From assembly GCF_000739575.1 (NCBI RefSeq), contig NZ_BBJO01000003.1:1-64000 (forward strand): a DNA stretch of 64,000 bases. Direction: 5' to 3'. The notes beneath the pieces were generated by a model. It saw nothing but the letters and a program-made list of their open reading frames with translations, searched no databases and was not told the DNA's origin. Each line of letters begins with the position of its first letter. Positions within the stretch are counted from its first letter, which is position 1. The position numbers were made by a program, and so were the translations under genes. Below are positions 9,138-50,686 of this stretch, one piece after another. Source of the DNA: Halobellus rufus (lineage in GTDB: Archaea > Halobacteriota > Halobacteria > Halobacteriales > Haloferacaceae).

Positions 9138-9815
9138 TCAGTACAGCAGGCTCGCGTCGTCTTCGATCATGTACAGCGACCGCGCGGCGATGTTGACCGC
9201 GTGATCGCCGACGCGTTCGAGGTCCCGGACCGTGAGCAGGAGTCGGGAGATGTCCTGGAGGTACGCCTCCGCGTCGGCGTCGTCCTCGCCGAACGGGTCG
9301 TGTTCGATGAGGTCGCGAACGACGGTCGAACTCGCCGCCTCGCACATCGCGTCGAGGTCGTCGTCCCGCTCGGCGACCGCGTGGCACGCCTCCGGGTCCT
9401 CGTTCGCGTAGGCGGCCATCGCCGCTTCGAGCATATCGAGCGTCTCCGCGCCGATCTGCTGGACGTCGACCTCGGGGAAGACGTCGCGGTCGGCGTCCAT
9501 CGCGTACTGCGCGAGGTTCACCGCGAGGTCGCCGATGCGTTCGAGGTCGGTGATGATCTTGAACGACGCCGCGATGAAGCGGAGGTCGGAGGCGACGGGC
9601 TGCTGGAGCGCGATGAGATCGACGCACTCGCCCTCTAAGTCGAGGTACATCTGGTTCACCTCGTCGTCGCCGGAGACGACTTCCTCGGCCGTCGATCGGT
9701 CCTTCTGTTCGAGCGCGTCGAGCCCCAGTCGAAGCCGCTCGGCGACGACCTCGCTCATGTAGAGGACGTCCTCGCGGAGGTTCGAGAGGGACTCTTGGTA
9801 CTCTTGTCTGGGCAT
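9138..9815 (-). CDS. phoU: Phosphate signalling protein PhoU
   Basis: This 225-residue all-helical protein has two PhoU repeats, each with the DLERIGD/DLERVGDHAVNIA metal-binding signature (IITDLERIGDLAVNLA and TVRDLERVGDHAVNIA). PhoU modulates Pst transport and phosphate signalling at the membrane. It is the last gene of the pst operon, 105 nt downstream of pstB, and ends 42 nt from the convergent KaiC-like gene. Confidence 0.96.
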   Translation of the reverse strand: MPRQEYQESLSNLREDVLYMSEVVAERLRLGLDALEQKDRSTAEEVVSGDDEVNQMYLDLEGECVDLIALQQPVASDLRFIAASFKIITDLERIGDLAVNLAQYAMDADRDVFPEVDVQQIGAETLDMLEAAMAAYANEDPEACHAVAERDDDLDAMCEAASSTVVRDLIEHDPFGEDDADAEAYLQDISRLLLTVRDLERVGDHAVNIAARSLYMIEDDASLLY

Positions 9816-9920
9816 AGTTAGCGAATCACGTGAAGTCGGTTAATACTGTCGCGGCGGCGACCCCGCCGGAGCGATGCGGTCCGCGCTCCCCGACCGAACG
9901 GTGCGTCTCTCACCCACGGA

Positions 9921-10814
9921 TCACCCGAACTTCCCGGTGATGTAGTCCTCGACGCGCTGGCTCTCGGGGTTCTCGAAGATCTTCTGGGTGTCGTCGAACT
10001 CGACGAGTTCCCCGCCGGTGAGGAACACCGCGGTCTGATCGGAGATGCGCGCGGCCTGCTGCATATTGTGCGTCACGATGACGACCGTGTACTCCTGGGC
10101 GAGTTCCTCGATGAGGTCCTCGATCTGGGAGGTCGCGACCGGGTCCAGCGCCGACGCCGGCTCGTCCATCAACAGGACCTCCGGATCGGGTGCGATCGCT
10201 CGGGCGATGCAGAGCCGCTGTTGCTGCCCGCCGGAGAGCTCCAAACCCGACTCGTCGAGTTGGTCTTTCACCTCCTCCCACAGCGCCGCGCGCTTGAGCG
10301 ACTCCTCGACGATCTCGTCGTAGTCGCCGCCTTTGTCCTGGATCTTCAACCCGTACGTGACGTTCTCGCGGATCGATTTCGGGAACGGGTTCGGCTTCTG
10401 GAACACCATCCCGACCCGGCGGCGCAGCGCCACCGGGTCGACGTCGTCGTCGTAGACGTTCTTCCCGCGGAGGTAGAGGTCACCCTCGACGCGCGCGCTG
10501 TCGATCAGGTCGTTCATCCGGTTGATACACCGGAGGAACGTCGACTTCCCGCAGCCCGAGGGTCCCACCATCGCGGTGACGCTCTTCTCGGGGATGTCCA
10601 TCGAGATGTTCTGCAGCGCCTGGTCGTCGCCGTACCAGACGTTGATGTCCCTCGCGCTGACGACGGTGTCGCGGTCGAAGGACGCCCCCGTCCGTTCGAC
10701 GCTCTCGCTGACGTCCGTCTGGATCAGCATCTCGTCGTCGGTCGGATCCGGCGACCCCGCGTCGCCGGTTCGCTGTTCGTCTCGGTTCTGCTCGCTCATT
10801 GAGTTCTGACTCAT
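9921..10814 (-). CDS. pstB: Phosphate ABC transporter ATPase PstB
   Basis: This 297-residue ATPase carries Walker [10 protein letters not shown] (84-92), signature LSGGQQQR and Walker [14 protein letters not shown]. It energises phosphate import through PstA and PstC. The first ~45 residues are a polar acidic tail typical of haloarchaeal proteins. Its ATG overlaps the pstA stop codon by 4 nt (ATGA), indicating translational coupling. It was called PstB rather than another importer ATPase because of the INRMNDL and [13 protein letters not shown] segments and the operon. Confidence 0.97.
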
Positions 10815-12466
10815 CCTGTTCGTTCAAACTTGTTCCGGAGCACGATCGCGACCGAGTTCATCGCCAGTAGGACGGCGAGAAGCACTACGACACCCGCGGG
10901 GACCGCTTTCGTGTAGAAGTCCTCGCTCGCGAAGAGCCCGGACCACGCGTACACCTGCAGCGGCATCGCGCTCACCTTCGAGCCGAGCGTGTCCGGGAGG
11001 TTGAACACGACGTTCGGCGCGCCGATCATGATGAGCGGCGCGGTCTCGCCGATCGCGCGGCCGAGCGCGAGGATGGTTCCCGTGAGGATCCCCGGGAACG
11101 CCTCCGGGAGCACGACGTTCTTGACCGTCTGCCAGCGCGTCGCACCCATCCCGTAGGACGCCTGCCGCATGTCCGAGGGGACCGAACGGATCGCCTCCCG
11201 CGAGGAGATGATGACGATGGGGAGGATCAAGAGCGCGAGCGTCGCGCCGCCGACGAGGACCGTCCCCGCGGACTGCCCGAGGTACGTCACGAAGACGCCC
11301 AGCCCCAGCAGTCCGTAGACCACCGACGGAACGCCCGCCAGGTTCGAGATGTTGACGTCGACGAAACGGGTCAGCGCGTTGTCGGGGGCGTACTCCTCCA
11401 GGTACACGGCCGCGCCGACGCCGAGCGGGAACGACAGCGCCGCGACGGTCGCCATCAGGAGGATCGACCCGCCGATCGCCGGGTACAGCCCCGCGTTCTC
11501 GGCGGTCCCGCTGTGAGCGCTCGTCAGGAATCCCCAGTCGACCCACGACGCCGGCCCGGCGAACCCGAGTGCGTCGACCGCGAGCGCGCCGACGAGCGCG
11601 CCCCCGACGACCGTCGCCGCGAAGACCAGTCCGAGCGGCGAGCCCTCCTCCGCGAACCCGCCGCGCCAGGCGTACGCACCAGTCGGCACGAACGCGACCG
11701 CGGTGACGACGACCGCCGGGACGGCCCCGAGGCCGACAGCCGGACCGAGCGCCCCCGCGACGAGCGTCGCCGCGAAGGCCGCGGTCGCAGCGTAGAGGCC
11801 GGTCGTCCTGTCGCCGATACCCGCGGCGTACGCGCCGACCGCCGCCGCGGATCCCCCGCCGACGACGGCGGCGATCATCATCCAGTCGACGGGGATGACC
11901 GGAATCGACTGGATCGCTCCGACGAGGCTCGGGACGACCTGCGGGACGCCGAGGGCCCCGCCGACAGGCCCGGGGAGGCCGAACAGCGAGAGGTAAAACA
12001 GCGCCGTCGTCGCGGCCAGTCGCGGCGTGAACGAGATCCGGTGGGCCTGCCCGGTGAGCAGCACCGAGAGGCCGACGGGGACCGCGATCCCGATCGCGTA
12101 CGCCAGCGCGACCAGCGGCGGGACGACGTCGATGACGAGGAGCGCGACGCCCCCGCTGAACATCAGCGAGACGACGAGCATCCCGACGAGCAGCGTGCCG
12201 AAGTTGAACGCCTCGCTGTCGCGCCGGCGGACCGTCCAGCCGACGGCGGCGCTCGGGACGACGAGCGCGAGGAGGAAGACGAGATACCAGCCCGGATCGG
12301 CCGTCAGCGGGCGGATCGCGTCGTTGGCGACGTACAGCAGGAGGACGCCCAGCATCACGATGCCGAACATCGTCGCCGCCAGCAGCAGGTACCGGAAGAC
12401 GGTGCCGACCGTGCGGCTGACCTGTCCGAAGCCCTCGATCTCGCCGGAGTCGGATGTCGTCGCCAT
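10811..12466 (-). CDS. pstA: Phosphate ABC transporter permease PstA
   Basis: This 551-residue membrane protein is much longer than bacterial PstA (about 280-300). The C-terminal ~230 residues form the permease core, with the EAA-type loop after [20 protein letters not shown] and [10 protein letters not shown]. The first ~300 residues add roughly eight further hydrophobic segments absent from the bacterial protein. With PstC it forms the phosphate channel in the cytoplasmic membrane. It begins 1 nt after the pstC stop and overlaps pstB. Confidence 0.94.
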
Positions 12467-12467
12467 C

Positions 12468-13427
12468 TCAGTACTCCTCCCGGTACCGCTGCGCGACGAA
12501 GTCGCTGATGACGTTCATAATCAGAGTGATGACGAAGAGCACGAGCCCGATGGCGAACAGGCTGCGGTAGGCGAGCCCCCCGCCGGTGATGTCGCCGAGG
12601 AGCAACTGCACCATCGCGGCCGTCATCGGGAGCGATCCCTCGAGGAACGACGCGGGGTTGAGCGGGTTGAGGAACTGCGCGCGCGACCCCGCGGCGATCG
12701 TCACGGCCATCGTCTCACCGATCGCCCGCGAGAGCGCGAGGATGAACGAGGAGAAGATCCCCGACAGCGCCGCCGGGACGACGATGCCGGTCGCGACGTC
12801 GAACTTCGTCGCGCCCATCCCGTAGCCCGCCTGTCTGAGCTCGTCGGGCACCGCCGACATCGCGTCCTCGCTGATGGAGGCGACCATCGGGATGATCATC
12901 ACGCCGACGACGACGCTCGCAGACAGCATATTGAACGTCCCGATGCTCGGGAAGACGACCGAGAGCGCGGGCGTGATGTAGATGAGCGCGAAGAACCCGT
13001 AGACGACCGTCGGGACGCCGGCGAGAATTTCGAGGGCCGGCTTCAGCACCGACCGCGCTCGCTTGCTCGCGTACTCGCTCAGGTAGATCGCCGTCGCGAC
13101 GCCGAGCGGGATCGCGATGACCGCCGATCCGAGCGTGATCATCACCGTCGCCGACACGAGCGTGAGGACGCCGAACTCCCCGCTGTTGATCTGCCACGTC
13201 GTCCCCGTGAGGAAGTCGACCAGCGAGGCGGTCTCGCCGGTGACGCCCATCAGCGGTGCGGTGATCGTGAAGAACTTCGCGGCCTCGGTCACCAGGAGGA
13301 CGACGATGCTGATCGTCGTCACGATGGAGAGGCCCGCACACAGGAAGAAGAACGTCCGCGTCAGCAACTCGCGCGGCGAGTTCTCCGTCTGTTTCGAGAT
13401 GTCCGTCGCCAGATCGTCCGTGCTCAT
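12468..13427 (-). CDS. pstC: Phosphate ABC transporter permease PstC
   Basis: This 319-residue permease has six predicted membrane helices. The conserved EAA loop is near GYGMGATKFDVATGIVVPAA, followed by LSRAIGETMAVTIAAG. It pairs with PstA for phosphate import. A first hydrophobic segment (about residues 25-55) follows a short polar N-terminus. It lies 57 nt downstream of pstS, within the operon pstS-pstC-pstA-pstB-phoU. Confidence 0.96.
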   Translation of the reverse strand: MSTDDLATDISKQTENSPRELLTRTFFFLCAGLSIVTTISIVVLLVTEAAKFFTITAPLMGVTGETASLVDFLTGTTWQINSGEFGVLTLVSATVMITLGSAVIAIPLGVATAIYLSEYASKRARSVLKPALEILAGVPTVVYGFFALIYITPALSVVFPSIGTFNMLSASVVVGVMIIPMVASISEDAMSAVPDELRQAGYGMGATKFDVATGIVVPAALSGIFSSFILALSRAIGETMAVTIAAGSRAQFLNPLNPASFLEGSLPMTAAMVQLLLGDITGGGLAYRSLFAIGLVLFVITLIMNVISDFVAQRYREEY

Positions 13428-13484: not shown

Positions 13485-14549
13485 TCAGTCGGAGCCGCCC
13501 GCGGCCTCGTCGATCCGGCCGAGCATCTCCTCGCGCTCGTCCTCGCTGAGCGGGACGTAGCCGACCTCGTCGGCGACGATCGCCTCGTCCGTCGAGTTCT
13601 CGATCCAGAAGCGGGCGAACTCACCTATGTGCTCTTCCTGGAGGGCAGCGACCTTCGGGTACGTGAAAAGCGGCCGCGAGAGCGGAGTGTACTCGCCCGA
13701 GAGCGCGGTGTCGAGCGACGGCTCGACGTACTCGTCGTCCCCGTCGCTGATCGACACGGCCTGTACCGTGTCCTGGTTCTGGCTGTAGTACGCGAAGCCC
13801 AGATAGCCCATCGCGAACTCCGAACCGCTCACGCCCTGGATGATCGTCCGGTCCTGCTCTGTCGGCGAGTAGTCCTGGCGGTGCTCGCCCTCCTCGCCGA
13901 TGATCGTCTCGTTGAAGTAGTCGTACGTCCCCGACGCGTCGGAGGGACCGTACAGTTCCAGCGGCTCGTCGGGCCACTCGGAGTTCACGTCGGCCCACGT
14001 CTCCGGAGCCGACTCCGCCGACCAGATCGCCTCTAACTCCTCGACGGTGAGGCCCTCGCCGATGAAACTGTTGTCGTTGTTGACGATCACCGTCAGCGCG
14101 TCGGTGGCGACCTTGAGTTCGACGGGTTCGACGTCGTTGTCCGCGCACTGCTCTTCCTCCTCGGGCTGGATCGGCCGCGAGGCGTTGTTGAAATCGGTCT
14201 GTCCGGTGCAGAAGTAGTTCGCGAATCCGCCACCGGATCCCGTCGACTGGAGGCTGATGCTGACGCCGCTGTGCTGCTCCTCGAAGCGCTCGCCCATCGC
14301 CGTCGCGAGCGGAAACACCGTCGAGGAGCCGGCGATGTCGATGTCGCCCGAGAGCGTCTGCGAGCCGCCGTCTCCGGATCCGTCCGAACTATCACCGTCG
14401 GAATCGGCCGCCGTCGGTTCGGCGGTAGCGTCACCGCCCGTATTCTGCTGCGTGCAGCCAGCCAGACCAGCGGCCCCTAGGCCGCCGACGGCGGTGAGCA
14501 GTTTCCGGCGTGAAACACGACTATTGCGCTCGGGTTCGCGCGTCATCAC
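13485..14549 (-). CDS. pstS: Phosphate-binding lipoprotein PstS
   Basis: This 354-residue solute-binding protein has a twin-arginine signal (SRRKLL near residues 13-18) ending in lipobox LAGC with Cys32. That predicts Tat export and lipid anchoring outside the cell. An acidic Ser/Asp-rich linker follows. The binding domain begins at DIDIAGSSTVFPLA, the PstS phosphate-loop signature. It is the first gene of the pst operon. A second Met at the next codon is an alternative start, and a TATA box about 20 nt upstream implies a leaderless transcript. Confidence 0.96.
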   Translation of the reverse strand: MMTREPERNSRVSRRKLLTAVGGLGAAGLAGCTQQNTGGDATAEPTAADSDGDSSDGSGDGGSQTLSGDIDIAGSSTVFPLATAMGERFEEQHSGVSISLQSTGSGGGFANYFCTGQTDFNNASRPIQPEEEEQCADNDVEPVELKVATDALTVIVNNDNSFIGEGLTVEELEAIWSAESAPETWADVNSEWPDEPLELYGPSDASGTYDYFNETIIGEEGEHRQDYSPTEQDRTIIQGVSGSEFAMGYLGFAYYSQNQDTVQAVSISDGDDEYVEPSLDTALSGEYTPLSRPLFTYPKVAALQEEHIGEFARFWIENSTDEAIVADEVGYVPLSEDEREEMLGRIDEAAGGSD

Positions 14550-14565
14550 TTCGCCGTAGCCGTAG

Positions 14566-14576
14566 ATAAAATAAAA
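14566..14576 (-). promoter_or_regulatory. TATA box of the pst operon
   Basis: On the minus strand TTTTATTTTAT lies 17-27 nt before the pstS ATG, consistent with leaderless transcription of the operon. A palindromic element sits 15 nt further upstream. Confidence 0.65.
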
Positions 14577-14590
14577 CCGCTGCTAATATG

Positions 14591-14604
14591 ACTATATAGA
14601 AAAA
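14591..14604. promoter_or_regulatory. Palindromic element CTATATAG, pst side
   Basis: ACTATATAGAAAAA contains the perfect palindrome CTATATAG at 14592-14599. Its first 13 bases are repeated exactly at 14851-14863. It lies 15 nt upstream of the pstS TATA box, where an archaeal activator would bind. Reported phosphate-dependent promoters of haloarchaeal pst operons make a role in phosphate control plausible, but this particular sequence is not one I can match to a published box. Confidence 0.5.
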
Positions 14605-14850
14605 ATAGTATTCCATACGCACCAGTAGACCGAGCGTCCGTGGGTCCGCATACGGCGTGAAACTTGGTTACAGCGGACGAGAACCCGATCCGAGATCGTG
14701 GTAGAACACACTACGCGCATCCGAGTACACTGTTATCGTCAGTTCGACGCCAACTCCGAACCCCGGGTCGGGGGGACCCCGACAGGGGACCGCTCCGTAT
14801 TCGCTCCCGCGGCCCCCGTACCCAGTATCACACCCATCCACTACAGAGCA

Positions 14851-14864
14851 ACTATATAGAAAAG
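14851..14864. promoter_or_regulatory. Palindromic element CTATATAG, abrB-phoU side
   Basis: This is the second copy of the 13-nt repeat ACTATATAGAAAA, with its palindrome at 14852-14859. It lies 10 nt upstream of the TATA box of the divergent AbrB-PhoU gene. The same short element next to both divergent promoters suggests common control. Between the two copies (14605-14850) I see no gene. Confidence 0.5.
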
Positions 14865-14869
14865 AGTAC

Positions 14870-14878
14870 TTTTATATT
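14870..14878 (+). promoter_or_regulatory. TATA box of the AbrB-PhoU gene
   Basis: TTTTATATT ends 21 nt before ATG 14900, the spacing expected for a leaderless haloarchaeal mRNA. Confidence 0.65.
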
Positions 14879-14899
14879 CGACTGATCGCTACGCACCCT

Positions 14900-15901
14900 A
14901 TGGTCGAAACGCGGAAGGTGCAGGTCACGGGCGGGTCGACGTTCACGGTGTCGATTCCGAAAGACTGGGCGACGGAAAACGACGTTTCGGCGGGGAGCGT
15001 CGTGGAGTTCTACCCGGAGGGCGACTCGCTGTTCTTGGCCCCGACGAACGGCGAGGAGCGGACGGAGGGGACGCTGGACGTGACCGACCTCTCGGGCGAC
15101 GAACTCACGCGCGCGGTCATGACGATGTACGTCAGCGGCTTCGACATCATCACCCTCGAGGGATCGCGGATCACGACCGACCAGCGGCGGACGATCAGGC
15201 AGGCCACGCAGAGTCTCGTCGGACTGGAAGTCCTAGAGGAGACGCGCGATACGGTCGTCATCCGGGACCTCCTCGACTCCGCGGAGCTGTCGATCCACAC
15301 CGCCGTCCGTCGGATGCGGCTGATCTCGCTGTCGATGCTCGAAGACGCCGTCGACGCGCTCGCGGAACTCGACACCGACATGGCGCGGGACGTGATCCAG
15401 CGCGACGACGACGTCGACCGGCTGTGGATGGTGGTCTCCCGCATCTTCCGCGCGACGCTGCGAACCCCGAAGGCCGCCGAGGAACTCGGGCTGCCCCGGG
15501 AGGTCTGCTTCGATTACCAGTCGGCCGCGCGGCAGCTCGAACGCGTCGCCGACCACGCGACGAAGATCGCGCACCTGACGCTCGAGTTCGAGAAGCCGAT
15601 CCCCGAGGACGTCGTCGACGCCCTCGACGAACTCCACGCGGAGGCCAGATCGATCATCGACGACGGGATGCAGGCGCTCTTGGCCGACGACAGCGACGAG
15701 GCGACCCGGCTGGCGAACGAGGCGCGCGAGTCCGTCCAGGTGATCGACGAGCGGGCCCGGAAGATCGACGAACTGCTCCGCGACCTCGATCCGGCCCGCG
15801 CACAGCTCCTGGGGCTGATCGTCGACTCGGTGTCGCGGAGCGCGGACTACGGCGGGAACATCGCCGAAACCGCACTGCAGAAAGCTGCGCCGACGCCGTA
15901 G
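14900..15901 (+). CDS. AbrB/SpoVT-PhoU fusion, candidate phosphate regulator
   Basis: This 333-residue protein joins a SpoVT/AbrB-type DNA-binding domain (residues about 1-45, VQVTGGSTFTVSIPKDWA) to two PhoU-like helical bundles (about 110-325). The signatures RQLERVADHATKIAHL and the final RSADYGGNIAE are visible. Bacterial PhoU lacks DNA-binding parts, so this fusion could itself read phosphate status and act on promoters. It is transcribed divergently from the pst operon and shares a palindromic repeat with it, supporting a role as the local regulator. This is inference and no experiment is implied. Confidence 0.92.
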   Translation: MVETRKVQVTGGSTFTVSIPKDWATENDVSAGSVVEFYPEGDSLFLAPTNGEERTEGTLDVTDLSGDELTRAVMTMYVSGFDIITLEGSRITTDQRRTIRQATQSLVGLEVLEETRDTVVIRDLLDSAELSIHTAVRRMRLISLSMLEDAVDALAELDTDMARDVIQRDDDVDRLWMVVSRIFRATLRTPKAAEELGLPREVCFDYQSAARQLERVADHATKIAHLTLEFEKPIPEDVVDALDELHAEARSIIDDGMQALLADDSDEATRLANEARESVQVIDERARKIDELLRDLDPARAQLLGLIVDSVSRSADYGGNIAETALQKAAPTP

Positions 15902-22552: not shown

Positions 22553-23478
22553 ATGAAAGTACTCGTGGTCGGCGGCAGCGGATTCATCGGAAGCACGCTC
22601 TGCCGAGAGCTGAAGAGTCGGGGACACGAGGTGACAGCCCTCTCACGGAGTCCGAGCAGCGAGGACCTCCCGAAAGGCGTGAACAAGGTGATGGGCAACG
22701 TCACCGACTACGACTCCATCCGCGGTGCGTTCGAGGGGATGGACGCCGTCTACAACCTCGTGGCGCTCTCGCCGCTGTTCAAACCGAGCGGCGGCGACAA
22801 GATGCACGACCAGATCCACAGAAAGGGGACCGAACACGTCGTCCGCGCGGCCGAGAAGCACGAGGTCGGCCGCCTCGTCCAGATGAGCGCGCTCGGTGCC
22901 GACCCCGACGGACAGACAGCGTACATCCGATCGAAGGGCGAAGCGAGGAGATCGTCACCGAGTCCGTCCTCGATTACACGATCTTCCGACCGTCGGTCGT
23001 CTTCGGCGACGGCGGCGAGTTCGTCTCGTTCACGAAACTGCTCGCGCCGCCGTACGTCAGCGCCCTCCCCGGCGGCGGGAAGACGCGCTTCCAGCCGATC
23101 TGGGTTGGCGACCTCGTGCCGATACTCGCCGACGCGATAGAGGACGAGAAACACGTCGGCCAGATCTACGAGATCGGCGGTCCCGACAAGCTCACGCTCG
23201 CGGAGATCGCGCGGCTGATCCACGAGTCCGACGGGCGGTCTACGACCGTGGTCCCGGTCCCGATGGGCCTCGCGAAGATCGGCCTCAGTATCGGCGATCT
23301 GGTCCCGGGGTTCCCGATGGGCAAAGACCAGTACCGATCGCTGCAGTTCGACAACGTCACCGACGACAACGACGTCGGTGCGTTCGGCGTGAGCGTCGGA
23401 GAACTCACCACGCTGAAGGCGTACCTGAACGGTCGCTCCGGTGAACCCAGCGAACCGGCTACGGCGACCGCCGAGTGA
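22553..23478 (+). pseudogene. NAD-dependent epimerase/NDUFA9-like SDR protein, frameshifted
   Basis: The first ~130 codons read GGSGFIGSTL (Rossmann NAD motif) through SALGADPDG and TAYIRSKGEA. The frame then moves back by one base near 22944, and the rest (EIVTESVLDYTIFRPSVVFG onward, ending 23478) continues in another frame. Restoring one G (gcgag to gcggag) yields an intact ~308-residue atypical SDR of the complex-I NDUFA9-like type. The conserved Tyr and Lys of the active site lie just before the break. Two further genes in the window show the same one-base loss, so a sequence error is more likely than a true pseudogene. Confidence 0.8.
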
Positions 23479-23654
23479 GGAGCCCCTCCGCTCTCTGTAT
23501 ACCGAGCGGCGGAACCGGGCGCGCCTAAATATAAATCCTGAGAAATAGGTGCTTAGGTCACACTGACGGAGTTGTAACGACCGATTAACATCCCGTCGCA
23601 GTCTGCCGATTTCCGGGATATTGCGATCCTACCGCGGATTTCACACCATCACAA

Positions 23655-23662
23655 GGTTTATG
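23655..23662 (+). promoter_or_regulatory. TATA-like element upstream of cetZ1
   Basis: GGTTTATG lies about 47 nt before ATG 23709, implying a short leader of roughly 20 nt. A purine-rich GAGGGG stretch at 23693-23698 could act as a weak ribosome-binding site. Confidence 0.4.
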
Positions 23663-23708
23663 TCCGCGTTTGCACTGGGTTACACGCAATGGCGAGGGGA
23701 CCGGACAA

Positions 23709-24890
23709 ATGAAGCTTGCAATGATCGGTTTCGGGCAGGCCGGGGGAAAGATCGTCGACAAGTTCGTCGAATACGACAAGCGCCACAACTCGGGGATCGT
23801 CCGCGCGGCGGTCGCCGTCAACACCGCGAAAGCCGACCTGATGGGACTGGAACACATCCCGAAGGACCAGCGGGTGCTCATCGGGCAGTCGCGGGTGAAG
23901 GGCCACGGTGTCGGCGCTGACAACGAACTCGGCGCAGAAGTCGCCGAGGAGGACATCGACGAAGTCCAGGGTGCGATCGACAGCATCCCGGTCCACGAGA
24001 TCGACGCCTTCCTCGTCGTCGCCGGCCTCGGCGGCGGCACCGGCAGCGGCGGTTCGCCCGTGCTCGCGAAACACCTCCAGCGGATCTACACGGAACCGGT
24101 CTACGGCTTGGGGGTCCTGCCCGGCAGCGACGAGGGCGGAATCTACACCCTCAACGCCGCTCGATCGTTCCAGACGTTCGTCCGCGAGGTCGACAACCTG
24201 CTCGTCTTCGACAACGACGCCTGGCGGAAGACCGGCGAGTCCGTGCAGGGCGGCTACGACGAGATCAACGAGGAGATCGTCACCCGCTTCGGCGTCCTCT
24301 TCGGTGCCGGCGAGATCGGTCAGGGCGGCGAGGTCGCAGAGAGCGTCGTCGACTCCTCGGAGATCATCAACACGCTCGCCGGCGGCGGCGTCTCTACCGT
24401 CGGCTACGCGTCCGAAACCGTCGAGAACGACTCCTCCGGCGGCGGGCTGCTCTCGCGGATCACCGGCAGCAAAGAGGAGGACGAACTCGACACTGCCCAC
24501 ACCACCAACCGGATCACCTCGCTGGTTCGGAAGGCCGCGCTCGGTCGGCTCACGCTCCCCTGTGAGATCGAAGGGACCGAGCGCGCCCTGCTCGTGATGG
24601 CCGGTCCCTCCCAGCACCTCAACCGGAAGGGAATAGAGCGCGGTCGCAAGTGGATCGAAGAGCAGACCGGAAGTATGGAAGTCCGCGGCGGTGACTACCC
24701 GATTCGGGACTCCGGCAAAGTCGCGTCCGTCATTCTCCTCTCCGGCGTGACGAACGTCCCCCGGATCAAGGAGTTACAGCAGGTCGCGATCGAGGCGCAG
24801 GACAACATCGACGACATCCGAGAGGAGAGCGAAGACAATCTGGAGAACCTCATCAACGATGACGAAGACGAGCTGGAGTCGCTTTTCTAG
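23709..24890 (+). CDS. cetZ1: CetZ1 tubulin-like cytoskeletal protein
   Basis: This 393-residue protein has the tubulin/FtsZ GTPase fold with the T4 signature GGGTGSG (residues 108-114) and the opening MKLAMIGFGQAGGK of archaeal CetZ proteins. CetZ1 assembles GTP-dependent filaments and controls cell shape, notably rod formation and motility, in Haloferax volcanii. The C-terminal tail is acidic (EDELESLF). The start at MKLAM matches the family. The first ATG upstream, in frame, would add 13 residues not seen in homologues. The gene overlaps the next by 32 nt. Confidence 0.95.
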   Translation: MKLAMIGFGQAGGKIVDKFVEYDKRHNSGIVRAAVAVNTAKADLMGLEHIPKDQRVLIGQSRVKGHGVGADNELGAEVAEEDIDEVQGAIDSIPVHEIDAFLVVAGLGGGTGSGGSPVLAKHLQRIYTEPVYGLGVLPGSDEGGIYTLNAARSFQTFVREVDNLLVFDNDAWRKTGESVQGGYDEINEEIVTRFGVLFGAGEIGQGGEVAESVVDSSEIINTLAGGGVSTVGYASETVENDSSGGGLLSRITGSKEEDELDTAHTTNRITSLVRKAALGRLTLPCEIEGTERALLVMAGPSQHLNRKGIERGRKWIEEQTGSMEVRGGDYPIRDSGKVASVILLSGVTNVPRIKELQQVAIEAQDNIDDIREESEDNLENLINDDEDELESLF

Positions 24891-48748: not shown

Positions 48749-48804
48749 GCGAGGACGTCGCAGTCGCTGGGGCCGACCACGGCCGCGACGCCGGACCCAC
48801 GCTC

Positions 48805-48819
48805 GGGGGGCCGCCCCCC
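48805..48819. repeat. GC hairpin after the UbiB gene
   Basis: Six G at 48805-48810 and six C at 48814-48819 form a perfect 6-bp stem with a CCG loop, 57 nt downstream of the stop. It has no T-run. It may be a weak terminator or chance in GC-rich DNA. Confidence 0.4.
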
Positions 48820-48880
48820 ACGTTATCAGTGGTGAGTATTTGACACGTAGGTTTATCCGCGGGTACCTGAATCTCCACGC

Positions 48881-49348
48881 ATGACGCGGTGGCGCGCCGT
48901 TGCCGGCGGATTCGCACTCGCGGCCTGTAGCGAGGCACTCGTCTTCGCGGTGACGGGGCGCGTGACGCTCGTCGGCGGGTTGGCGGGGAGCGCGCTGGCG
49001 GGCTACCTCGCCGGCGAGGAGCTGTCCGACGGCGCGTGGCACGGCCTCCTGACCGCGATGGCGTGGGGGATCGTCCTCATCCCGGGGCTGGTCGCGCTGT
49101 CGGTCGTCACCGACGCGCCGCTTCCCTTCCCGATCGAGTTCCTCCTCCCGCTGCTCGATACGCCCGGAGAGGCGACCACCACGATCCTCCTGAGCGCGAG
49201 TCTGCCGAACGTCGCCGCGGGGGTACTCGGGAGCCTCACCAGGCGGCAGGACGACGGCTCGACGGGCCAGTCGAGCGACCGATCGGGCGAGCAATCGACC
49301 GCGCGGCCGACGGCCCGACCGGTCGAGACCGAGACCGACGAGGGCTGA
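48881..49348 (+). CDS. DUF5518-like membrane protein
   Basis: This 155-residue protein has four hydrophobic segments (about residues 7-27, 29-46, 53-75 and 92-113), including GGLAGSALAGYLAGEE, then a polar Ser/Thr/Arg-rich tail. It looks like the DUF5518 family seen in haloarchaea. A TATA-like GGTTTATCC lies at 48850-48858, 23-31 nt from the ATG, suggesting a leaderless start. Confidence 0.75.
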   Translation: MTRWRAVAGGFALAACSEALVFAVTGRVTLVGGLAGSALAGYLAGEELSDGAWHGLLTAMAWGIVLIPGLVALSVVTDAPLPFPIEFLLPLLDTPGEATTTILLSASLPNVAAGVLGSLTRRQDDGSTGQSSDRSGEQSTARPTARPVETETDEG

Positions 49349-49446
49349 CTGTCCGGCGACTGAGAGCGCGGGCGGGGGCCGGAGCGAACTCCCCGGTCGA
49401 TCGCGTGGGATCGGCGTCTCACCGACCCTCGCGGCGTTTCCAAACC

Positions 49447-49454
49447 GTTTATAC
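49447..49454 (+). promoter_or_regulatory. TATA box of aIF5A
   Basis: GTTTATAC lies 24-31 nt before ATG 49478, a textbook leaderless spacing for a highly expressed archaeal gene. Confidence 0.65.
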
Positions 49455-49477
49455 CGACCACACGTCAATCCCGACGT

Positions 49478-49852
49478 ATGCCGAAAGAGCAGAAGCAGGT
49501 CCGCGAACTGCAGGAAGGCAGCTACGTGATGATGGACGACTCGCCGTGTAAGATCAACGCCTACAGCACCGCGAAGCCCGGAAAACACGGGAGCGCGAAG
49601 GCACGGATCGAGGGTCGCGGCGTCTTCGACGGCAAGAAGCGCTCGCTGAGCCAGCCCGTCGACGCGAAGGTGTGGGTCCCGATCATCGAGCGAAAGCAGG
49701 GCCAGGTCGTCTCCGTCACCGACGGCGACGCCCAGATCATGGACCTCGAGACCTACCAGACGTTCACGATGCGCATCCCCGAGGACGAGGACCTCAACCC
49801 CGACGACGAGATCGAATACCTCGACTACGAGGGCCAGCGGAAGATCATCTGA
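49478..49852 (+). CDS. eif5A: Translation initiation factor aIF5A
   Basis: This 124-residue factor has Lys36 in [14 protein letters not shown], the site modified to deoxyhypusine/hypusine, and the C-terminal OB domain. It promotes elongation at difficult peptide bonds. It is followed by agmatinase (6-nt gap), a Nif3 protein and deoxyhypusine synthase, so the modifier sits beside its substrate. Confidence 0.97.
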
Positions 49853-49858
49853 TCGGAG

Positions 49859-50686
49859 ATGTTCCCAGGGGCGACCGCATCACGGACCGACGCCGCGTAC
49901 GTCGTCGTGGGCGCGCCGCTGGATGTCTCGACTTCGTTTCGACCCGGGACCCGCTTCGGTCCCGAGAGAATCCGGCGGTTCGCCCGGCCGTTCGACGACT
50001 ACGACCGGCGAACCGACCTGCGTTTTTCGGACTGTTCCGTCCACGACCACGGCGACGTCCGCGCGTGGGACGACGCCCCCGAGTACCTCGCGTGGCTCGC
50101 GGGCGAACTCCGCGACGTCGTCGCCGACGACGCCGTCCCGCTCGTCCTCGGCGGGGAACACACCGTGACCGCCGCCGGCGTCGAGGCCGTCGACCCCGAC
50201 GTGTTCGTCTGCCTCGACGCGCACCTCGACCTCCGGGAGGCCTACGACGGCAACGAGTACAGCCACGCGACCGTCACCCGACGGGTCCTAGAAGCTCACG
50301 CCGACGTCGACGTCGAGGAGGCGATTATCCTCGGCGCGCGAACCGGCTCGCCGGAGGAGTGGGAACGGGCGGAGGAGGGGGACGTGACTGCCGTCGCGCC
50401 CGAAGACGTCTCCGACTTCGACCTCGAATCGCACCTCGACGGCCGGAGCGCGTACCTGAGCGTCGACGTCGACGCCGCCGATCCCGGGTTCGCGCCGGGG
50501 ACCGGCACGCCGGAGCCGTTCGGTCTCGACCCGCGGGAGATGCGCGACGTCGTCCGGACGGTCGCGCCCCAAGCCGCGGGCTTCGACGTCGTAGAGGTCA
50601 ACGACCGTGACGACGGGCAGGCGGCGTCGCTGGCGGCGAAGATCGCCCGGGAGTTCGTGTTCTCGCACGCCGGCGCGGCAGAGTGA
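49859..50686 (+). CDS. speB: Agmatinase/ureohydrolase family protein
   Basis: This 275-residue ureohydrolase has metal ligands in LGGEHTVT (His101), DAHLDLR (Asp120, His122, Asp124) and SVDVDAADPGFAPGTGTPEP. It hydrolyses agmatine or an aminopropyl-agmatine derivative to supply polyamine for deoxyhypusine. Work on haloarchaeal aIF5A has proposed such a route. The substrate in this organism is inferred from the neighbours aIF5A and dys. Confidence 0.92.
   Translation: MFPGATASRTDAAYVVVGAPLDVSTSFRPGTRFGPERIRRFARPFDDYDRRTDLRFSDCSVHDHGDVRAWDDAPEYLAWLAGELRDVVADDAVPLVLGGEHTVTAAGVEAVDPDVFVCLDAHLDLREAYDGNEYSHATVTRRVLEAHADVDVEEAIILGARTGSPEEWERAEEGDVTAVAPEDVSDFDLESHLDGRSAYLSVDVDAADPGFAPGTGTPEPFGLDPREMRDVVRTVAPQAAGFDVVEVNDRDDGQAASLAAKIAREFVFSHAGAAE

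Follow-up and report, generated by a model that had tools for sequence, protein, structure and literature searches.

The 350-bp intergenic region between the pst operon and the divergent gene for an AbrB-PhoU fusion protein was analyzed in a 64,000-nt stretch of the Halobellus rufus genome (positions 1 to 64,000 of contig NZ_BBJO01000003.1, assembly GCF_000739575.1; referred to as the window). It carries two copies of the palindrome CTATATAG, one before each gene. We consider it likely, judging from comparative sequence data, that these are the cores of pho-boxes (P-boxes) to which AbrB-PhoU binds by its AbrB domain, so that this protein would control both the pst operon and its own gene. At the sequence level, the boxes are conserved, they occur at a fixed placement and in linkage with both pst and the regulator gene, and the encoded protein combines an AbrB domain with a PhoU part.

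The initial annotation had described a single 13-nt word upstream of both divergent TATA boxes, which is exact: ACTATATAGAAAA is found at 14591-14603 and 14851-14863, both on the + strand. These two intergenic copies are the only ones in the 3.85 Mb genome, with one mismatch allowed. The palindrome CTATATAG is observed twice in the window (0.00 copies expected). Dinucleotide shuffling of the intergenic region (2000 shuffles) gave a repeated 13-mer in one case and two copies of CTATATAG in no case. Both copies of ACTATATAGAAAA have the same orientation. On the AbrB-PhoU side, the AAAA tail therefore follows the core and points to the TATA box, and on the pst side it precedes the core and points away from the TATA box; the 13-nt identity is thus partly incidental. 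The literal word was ruled out as a motif, as conservation is limited to CTATATAG and gene-specific downstream sequence. What recurs near pst and abrB-phoU in related genomes is therefore not the annotated word, but its palindromic core, which is kept order-wide at fixed spacing. The absence from relatives that the initial annotation had named as a refutation was not observed.

For the pst side, 80 AbrB-PhoU gene loci were taken from named haloarchaeal genomes. The order consensus CTATATAGnnnTnATAGnAGnGTAYTTA or a close variant is present on the pst strand in 48 sequences, including the window, where the element differs at 3 positions. The start codon is located about 53 nt from the first base of the element in these sequences, and order-wide the element stands ~52 nt before pstS. 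In the alignment, the TATA-box and ATG columns stand out, though the template covered them only partly. The predicted pstS TATA box is located ~22-27 nt before the start codon, which suggests a nearly leaderless transcript. By its location, ahead of the TATA box in a pst promoter, the element is a candidate member of the pho-box/P-box class. Within the 80 loci, the pst template gave 46 matches up to 620 bp upstream of the regulator, compared to 5 in the remaining ~2 million positions, and 3 of these 5 precede another PstS-type gene. The density of TATATAG in the 350 bp preceding the regulator is ~108-fold that in the remainder of the loci.

An order-wide search (TATATAGnnnTnATAGnAGnGTAYTTA, up to 2 mismatches, 146 genomes, reversed pattern as control) matched the pst element in 100 of the 146 genomes, while the control yielded 1 hit. 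The Halobellus rufus genome is outside the 100 because its element departs at three positions. An AbrB-PhoU orthologue is encoded in 142 of these 146 genomes. Among the matches listed, at least 81 of 109 sites have an AbrB-PhoU start in divergent orientation no more than 700 bp away (a lower bound; the site at L127, for example, adjoins a second copy). All 30 pattern-search loci contain abrB-phoU, and in about 29 of the 30 sampled the downstream ORF codes for a PstS-type lipoprotein (23 called by a strict regular expression, six more by eye) that typically starts 49-52 nt past the core. Each of the 13 nonadjacent sites examined precedes a PstS-type gene; at L223, the ORF finder chose another frame, and a leader and PstS match coincide in position with it. 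Loci of family f5 have canonical phoU as the divergent neighbor of the regulator, which has its own TATATA box, and a distant pstS retains the P-box. This arrangement fits a trans-acting factor. The fact that the box is kept order-wide at fixed spacing, also before distant pstS genes, supports a shared regulator site. That the box is always accompanied by an adjacent regulator is ruled out order-wide by family f5; it holds in the window's own family. A wide P-box regulon in the window genome was rejected: further convincing sites were not found there, and matches with 2-3 mismatches were no commoner than those of reversed-pattern controls.

Within the window's family, the box is present in 28 of 29 pst promoters beside abrB-phoU (up to 4 mismatches; two pst types), compared to 1 of the 24 that are not beside it. 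For pst2-type operons, the corresponding figures are 4 of 5 beside abrB-phoU and none elsewhere. The second pst operon of the window genome (pstS2, pstC2; contig C47, ~23324-24530, L106:2325-3531) is not a member of the set: a properly placed box is absent and the promoter is of the CCTATTATAAACCG type. At a distance of 130 nt, pstS2 is preceded by a degenerate CTATATACTGCTATTAGCTG.

On the regulator side, a TATATA/CTATAG box is found at -62 to -28 of abrB-phoU in 68 of 79 species, compared to 7 of 350 control genes and to 3 of the 34 controls with a TATA-like box. Here as on the pst side, counts and p-values treat related species as independent and are nominal only. With a box in its own promoter across species, AbrB-PhoU is placed among the putatively autoregulated one-component regulators. 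Its transcript is predicted to be nearly leaderless, like that of pstS. Core and TATA box are ~14 nt apart in the pst promoter and 10-11 nt apart in that of the regulator. The unlike layouts would make opposite or unequal outcomes at the two promoters possible.

The neighboring gene had been described as a fusion of an AbrB domain to PhoU, and the domain assignments bear this out (Table 1): the PF04014 score places the N-terminal domain in the SpoVT-AbrB/MazE family, and the PF01895 domain together with two three-helix bundles places the C-terminal part in the PhoU family. Comparison of the PhoU part to PhoU structures with Foldseek gave TM-scores (by target) of 0.72-0.81 (4q25, 1t8b, 1t72), and a sequence search of solved structures returned canonical PhoU proteins only. 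AbrB-PhoU reaches 56.8 bits under TIGR02135, below the cut-off of 130.25, compared to 172.3 bits for the PhoU encoded at 9138-9815; it is a fusion relative and not a canonical PhoU. An alpha/beta segment (residues 56-123) links the AbrB domain and the PhoU part. Across 27 aligned orthologues (71-94% identical), residues 3-14 and most of residues 16-24 are invariant. This N-terminal segment is the part of the AbrB domain expected to face the DNA; its invariance parallels that of the box and speaks for AbrB-PhoU as the binder. In a phylum-wide sample of 148 genomes, 139 encode AbrB-PhoU relatives.

Table 1. Features of the pst/abrB-phoU region of Halobellus rufus (window coordinates)
Feature	Position	Strand	Evidence and remarks
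canonical phoU without DNA-binding domain, final gene of the operon	9138..9815	-	TIGR02135 above cut-off, PF01895
pstB, ATPase, pst operon	9921..10814	-	ORF and gene order, matches in relatives
pstA, permease, pst operon	10811..12466	-	ORF and gene order, matches in relatives
pstC, permease, pst operon	12468..13427	-	ORF and synteny with relatives
pstS, phosphate-binding lipoprotein	13485..14546	-	TIGR02136, 241 bits; alternative GTG start 14549
Predicted pstS TATA box TTTTAT	14571..14576	-	sequence and column conservation
Whole conserved pst element CTATATAG TCATA TTAGCAG CG GTTTTA	14572..14599	-	alignment of relatives
Palindromic core CTATATAG before pst, forming the distal half of the P-box there	14592..14599		sequence, relatives
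Palindromic core CTATATAG, regulator-side copy	14852..14859		sequence, relatives
Predicted AbrB-PhoU TATA box TTTTATAT	14870..14877	+	sequence; 10 nt after core, ~25 nt before ATG
AbrB-PhoU fusion gene (333 aa), candidate regulator	14900..15901	+	Pfam, 27-orthologue alignment, AlphaFold, Foldseek
AbrB/MazE-type DNA-binding domain, residues 8-51	14921..15052	+	PF04014, 36.4 bits (cut-off 24.7)
PhoU part, residues ~131-324	15290..15871	+	PF01895, 76.8 bits; Foldseek

We envisage that each of the two CTATATAG cores serves one of the divergent promoters, both nearly leaderless. Binding of the core just upstream of BRE/TATA would be by the AbrB domain, probably in a dimer or a larger oligomer, and AbrB-PhoU would act in this way at both the pstSCAB-phoU promoter and its own. 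The PhoU part would report in what state the Pst transporter is (alternatively, the state of canonical PhoU or the intracellular phosphate). Upon phosphate scarcity, pst would be induced, and the regulator would set its own level. For binding to the boxes, for the mode of phosphate sensing, and for the sign of control at each promoter, this is what we infer. The one-protein phosphate switch of the initial annotation thus gains support as to a shared regulator site, for which AbrB-PhoU is the best candidate binder; the 13-nt word does not stand as that site.

Several observations weigh against this model. The two promoters have the palindrome in common and differ in the spacing of ATAG and AG. 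Adjacency alone does not name the binder, as the pst box of family f5 persists without a neighboring regulator. In Halorubrum-type loci (L062, L064-L068, L071, L072, L074), pst no longer adjoins abrB-phoU, and a very conserved palindrome GTATATATTTTGATCAAAATTAAGG before the TATA box of abrB-phoU replaces TATATAG; in Halorubrum-like genomes with pst moved from the regulator, the pst promoter retains CATAGCA and has lost TATATAG. The two halves of the element may thus have different readers. The canonical PhoU of the pst operon could be the real phosphate reporter. In the AlphaFold model, the PhoU part is of high confidence and the AbrB domain has a pLDDT of only ~35-65; the model is that of a monomer, and the swapped dimer of AbrB domains is beyond what a monomer can show.

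The main alternative is that the box is a true phosphate-response element which is bound by another transcription factor, encoded elsewhere, with AbrB-PhoU as a co-regulated target or modulator. The pst element occurs away from abrB-phoU in some lineages, the proximal ATAGnAG half persists where the distal half is lost, and the window genome codes for a second AbrB-PhoU paralogue, all of which would suit such a factor. It is harder to reconcile with the box in the own promoter of nearly every AbrB-PhoU orthologue, with the near-exclusive occurrence of boxed pst operons beside abrB-phoU in one family, and with the AbrB domain being a DNA-binding fold. We thus regard this alternative as rather unlikely and prefer AbrB-PhoU as the binder.

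Since CTATATAG is TATA-like and lies within the promoter, and since tandem TATA boxes are possible, it might also be a second TATA box that provides an alternative start site for each gene rather than an operator. A conserved ordinary TATA box is, however, already present at the standard leaderless distance, TATATA is rare at this place in haloarchaeal control genes (see the control counts above), and an exact palindrome with a distal ATAGnAG at fixed spacing is foreign to core promoters, so that we consider this very improbable. A chance repeat might be invoked because the promoter sequence around both copies is AT-rich and conservation between the two sides does not extend to the flanking AAAA. 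It is refuted by the shuffles, by the uniqueness in the genome, by the concentration of template matches upstream of the regulator, by the order-wide conservation, and by the box count in species compared to control genes, and its probability is negligible.

The genes of the pst operon are encoded on the - strand in the order pstS-pstC-pstA-pstB-phoU, with pstS first, to the left of the intergenic region. NCBIfam and Pfam identified pstS and canonical phoU; pstC, pstA, and pstB were assigned from their ORFs, their order in the operon, and their matches in relatives. A GC-rich inverted repeat (CCCGGGTCGGGG/CCCCGACAGGGG) is located mid-intergenic at 14762-14788 of the window, without an Rfam or terminator match, and TACGCACC is repeated in the intergenic region at 14616 and 14890. 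No bacterial promoters, terminators, or Rfam elements were found in the pst/abrB-phoU region.

Variant loci were encountered among the relatives. In L159, L160, L149, L162, and L163, pst is far from abrB-phoU, proximal CATAGCA/AATAGTAG is retained and distal TATATAG is absent; these half-elements hint at separate roles for the two halves. In reduced loci (L004, L017, L022, L039, L054, L069, and, in genome G060, L196), pstSCA or all pst genes are gone beside the regulator, and canonical phoU or pstB-phoU remains divergent from abrB-phoU. The P-box is retained before pstB in L039, L054, and L069.

Further genes of the window genome were noted. The second AbrB-PhoU paralogue (contig C51, ~9404-10260, L101) has a different AbrB recognition segment, KVQRLGPSTLAMTLPAEW, and CTATATAG is absent upstream of it. 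Contig C58 (~48796-50240, L102) codes for a further PhoU relative, in which two PhoU-like domains are separated by extra domains, possibly of the TrkA-C type. On contig C77 (15897-15925, L103:5898-5926), the array-like CTATATAGGCTACATAGAGAAAATAGTAG with ~10-nt periodic ATAG units lies upstream of the gene for a 421-aa membrane protein, which we take to be MgtC/DUF4010-like.

Compared to the bacterial PhoU-Pst-PhoR/PhoB system, the PhoU fold, the neighboring Pst transporter, and a phosphate-controlled pst promoter (here predicted) are shared. As PhoU is fused to a DNA-binding domain, the simplest model needs no histidine kinase/response regulator. To our knowledge, the haloarchaeal box is unrelated in sequence to the bacterial Pho box. 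With AbrB/MazE (SpoVT-AbrB) factors, AbrB-PhoU has the N-terminal PF04014 domain of beta-beta-alpha-beta-beta layout in common; it differs by the additional C-terminal PhoU part, a putative sensor, and by the alpha/beta linker.

In Halobacterium salinarum, a pho-box (P-box) has already been reported for the promoters of pst1 and pst2 (Furtwangler et al., 2010, Mol Microbiol 76:378, via PMC6560208); as described there, it is essential for up-regulation under phosphate starvation, which is attributed to PhoU regulators (PMC6560208). Like the present element, it is a cis element that precedes pst operons in haloarchaea, and it is at this level of description that the two are compared here. The present element differs from that P-box, as far as the latter is described in this source, by being defined order-wide and by being found also at the promoter of the regulator itself. 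In Haloferax volcanii, PhoU2 (HVO_2374), encoded beside pst1, has already been reported as a predicted DNA-binding regulator of phosphate uptake (PMC6267482); the available text of that source does not assign a target site or binding to PhoU2. The Haloferax loci have the same arrangement and boxes as the locus of Halobellus rufus. What the alignments add to this are the candidate operator's sequence and spacing across the order, its presence at the promoter of the regulator, and its persistence in trans.

These results bear on how archaea without PhoR-PhoB convert phosphate level to gene expression. They supply a candidate operator that is precise and conserved, one candidate protein to bind it, and natural variants that have lost a box half, pst genes, or the linkage, so that the question is now open to a concrete, cheap test in Haloferax volcanii. 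Whether AbrB-PhoU takes the place of PhoR-PhoB as the general one-component phosphate regulator in haloarchaea, and perhaps throughout the phylum, appears evenly balanced to us. The state of the transporter would then be passed directly to a DNA-binding PhoU, and the two promoter layouts would drive pst and the regulator's own level.
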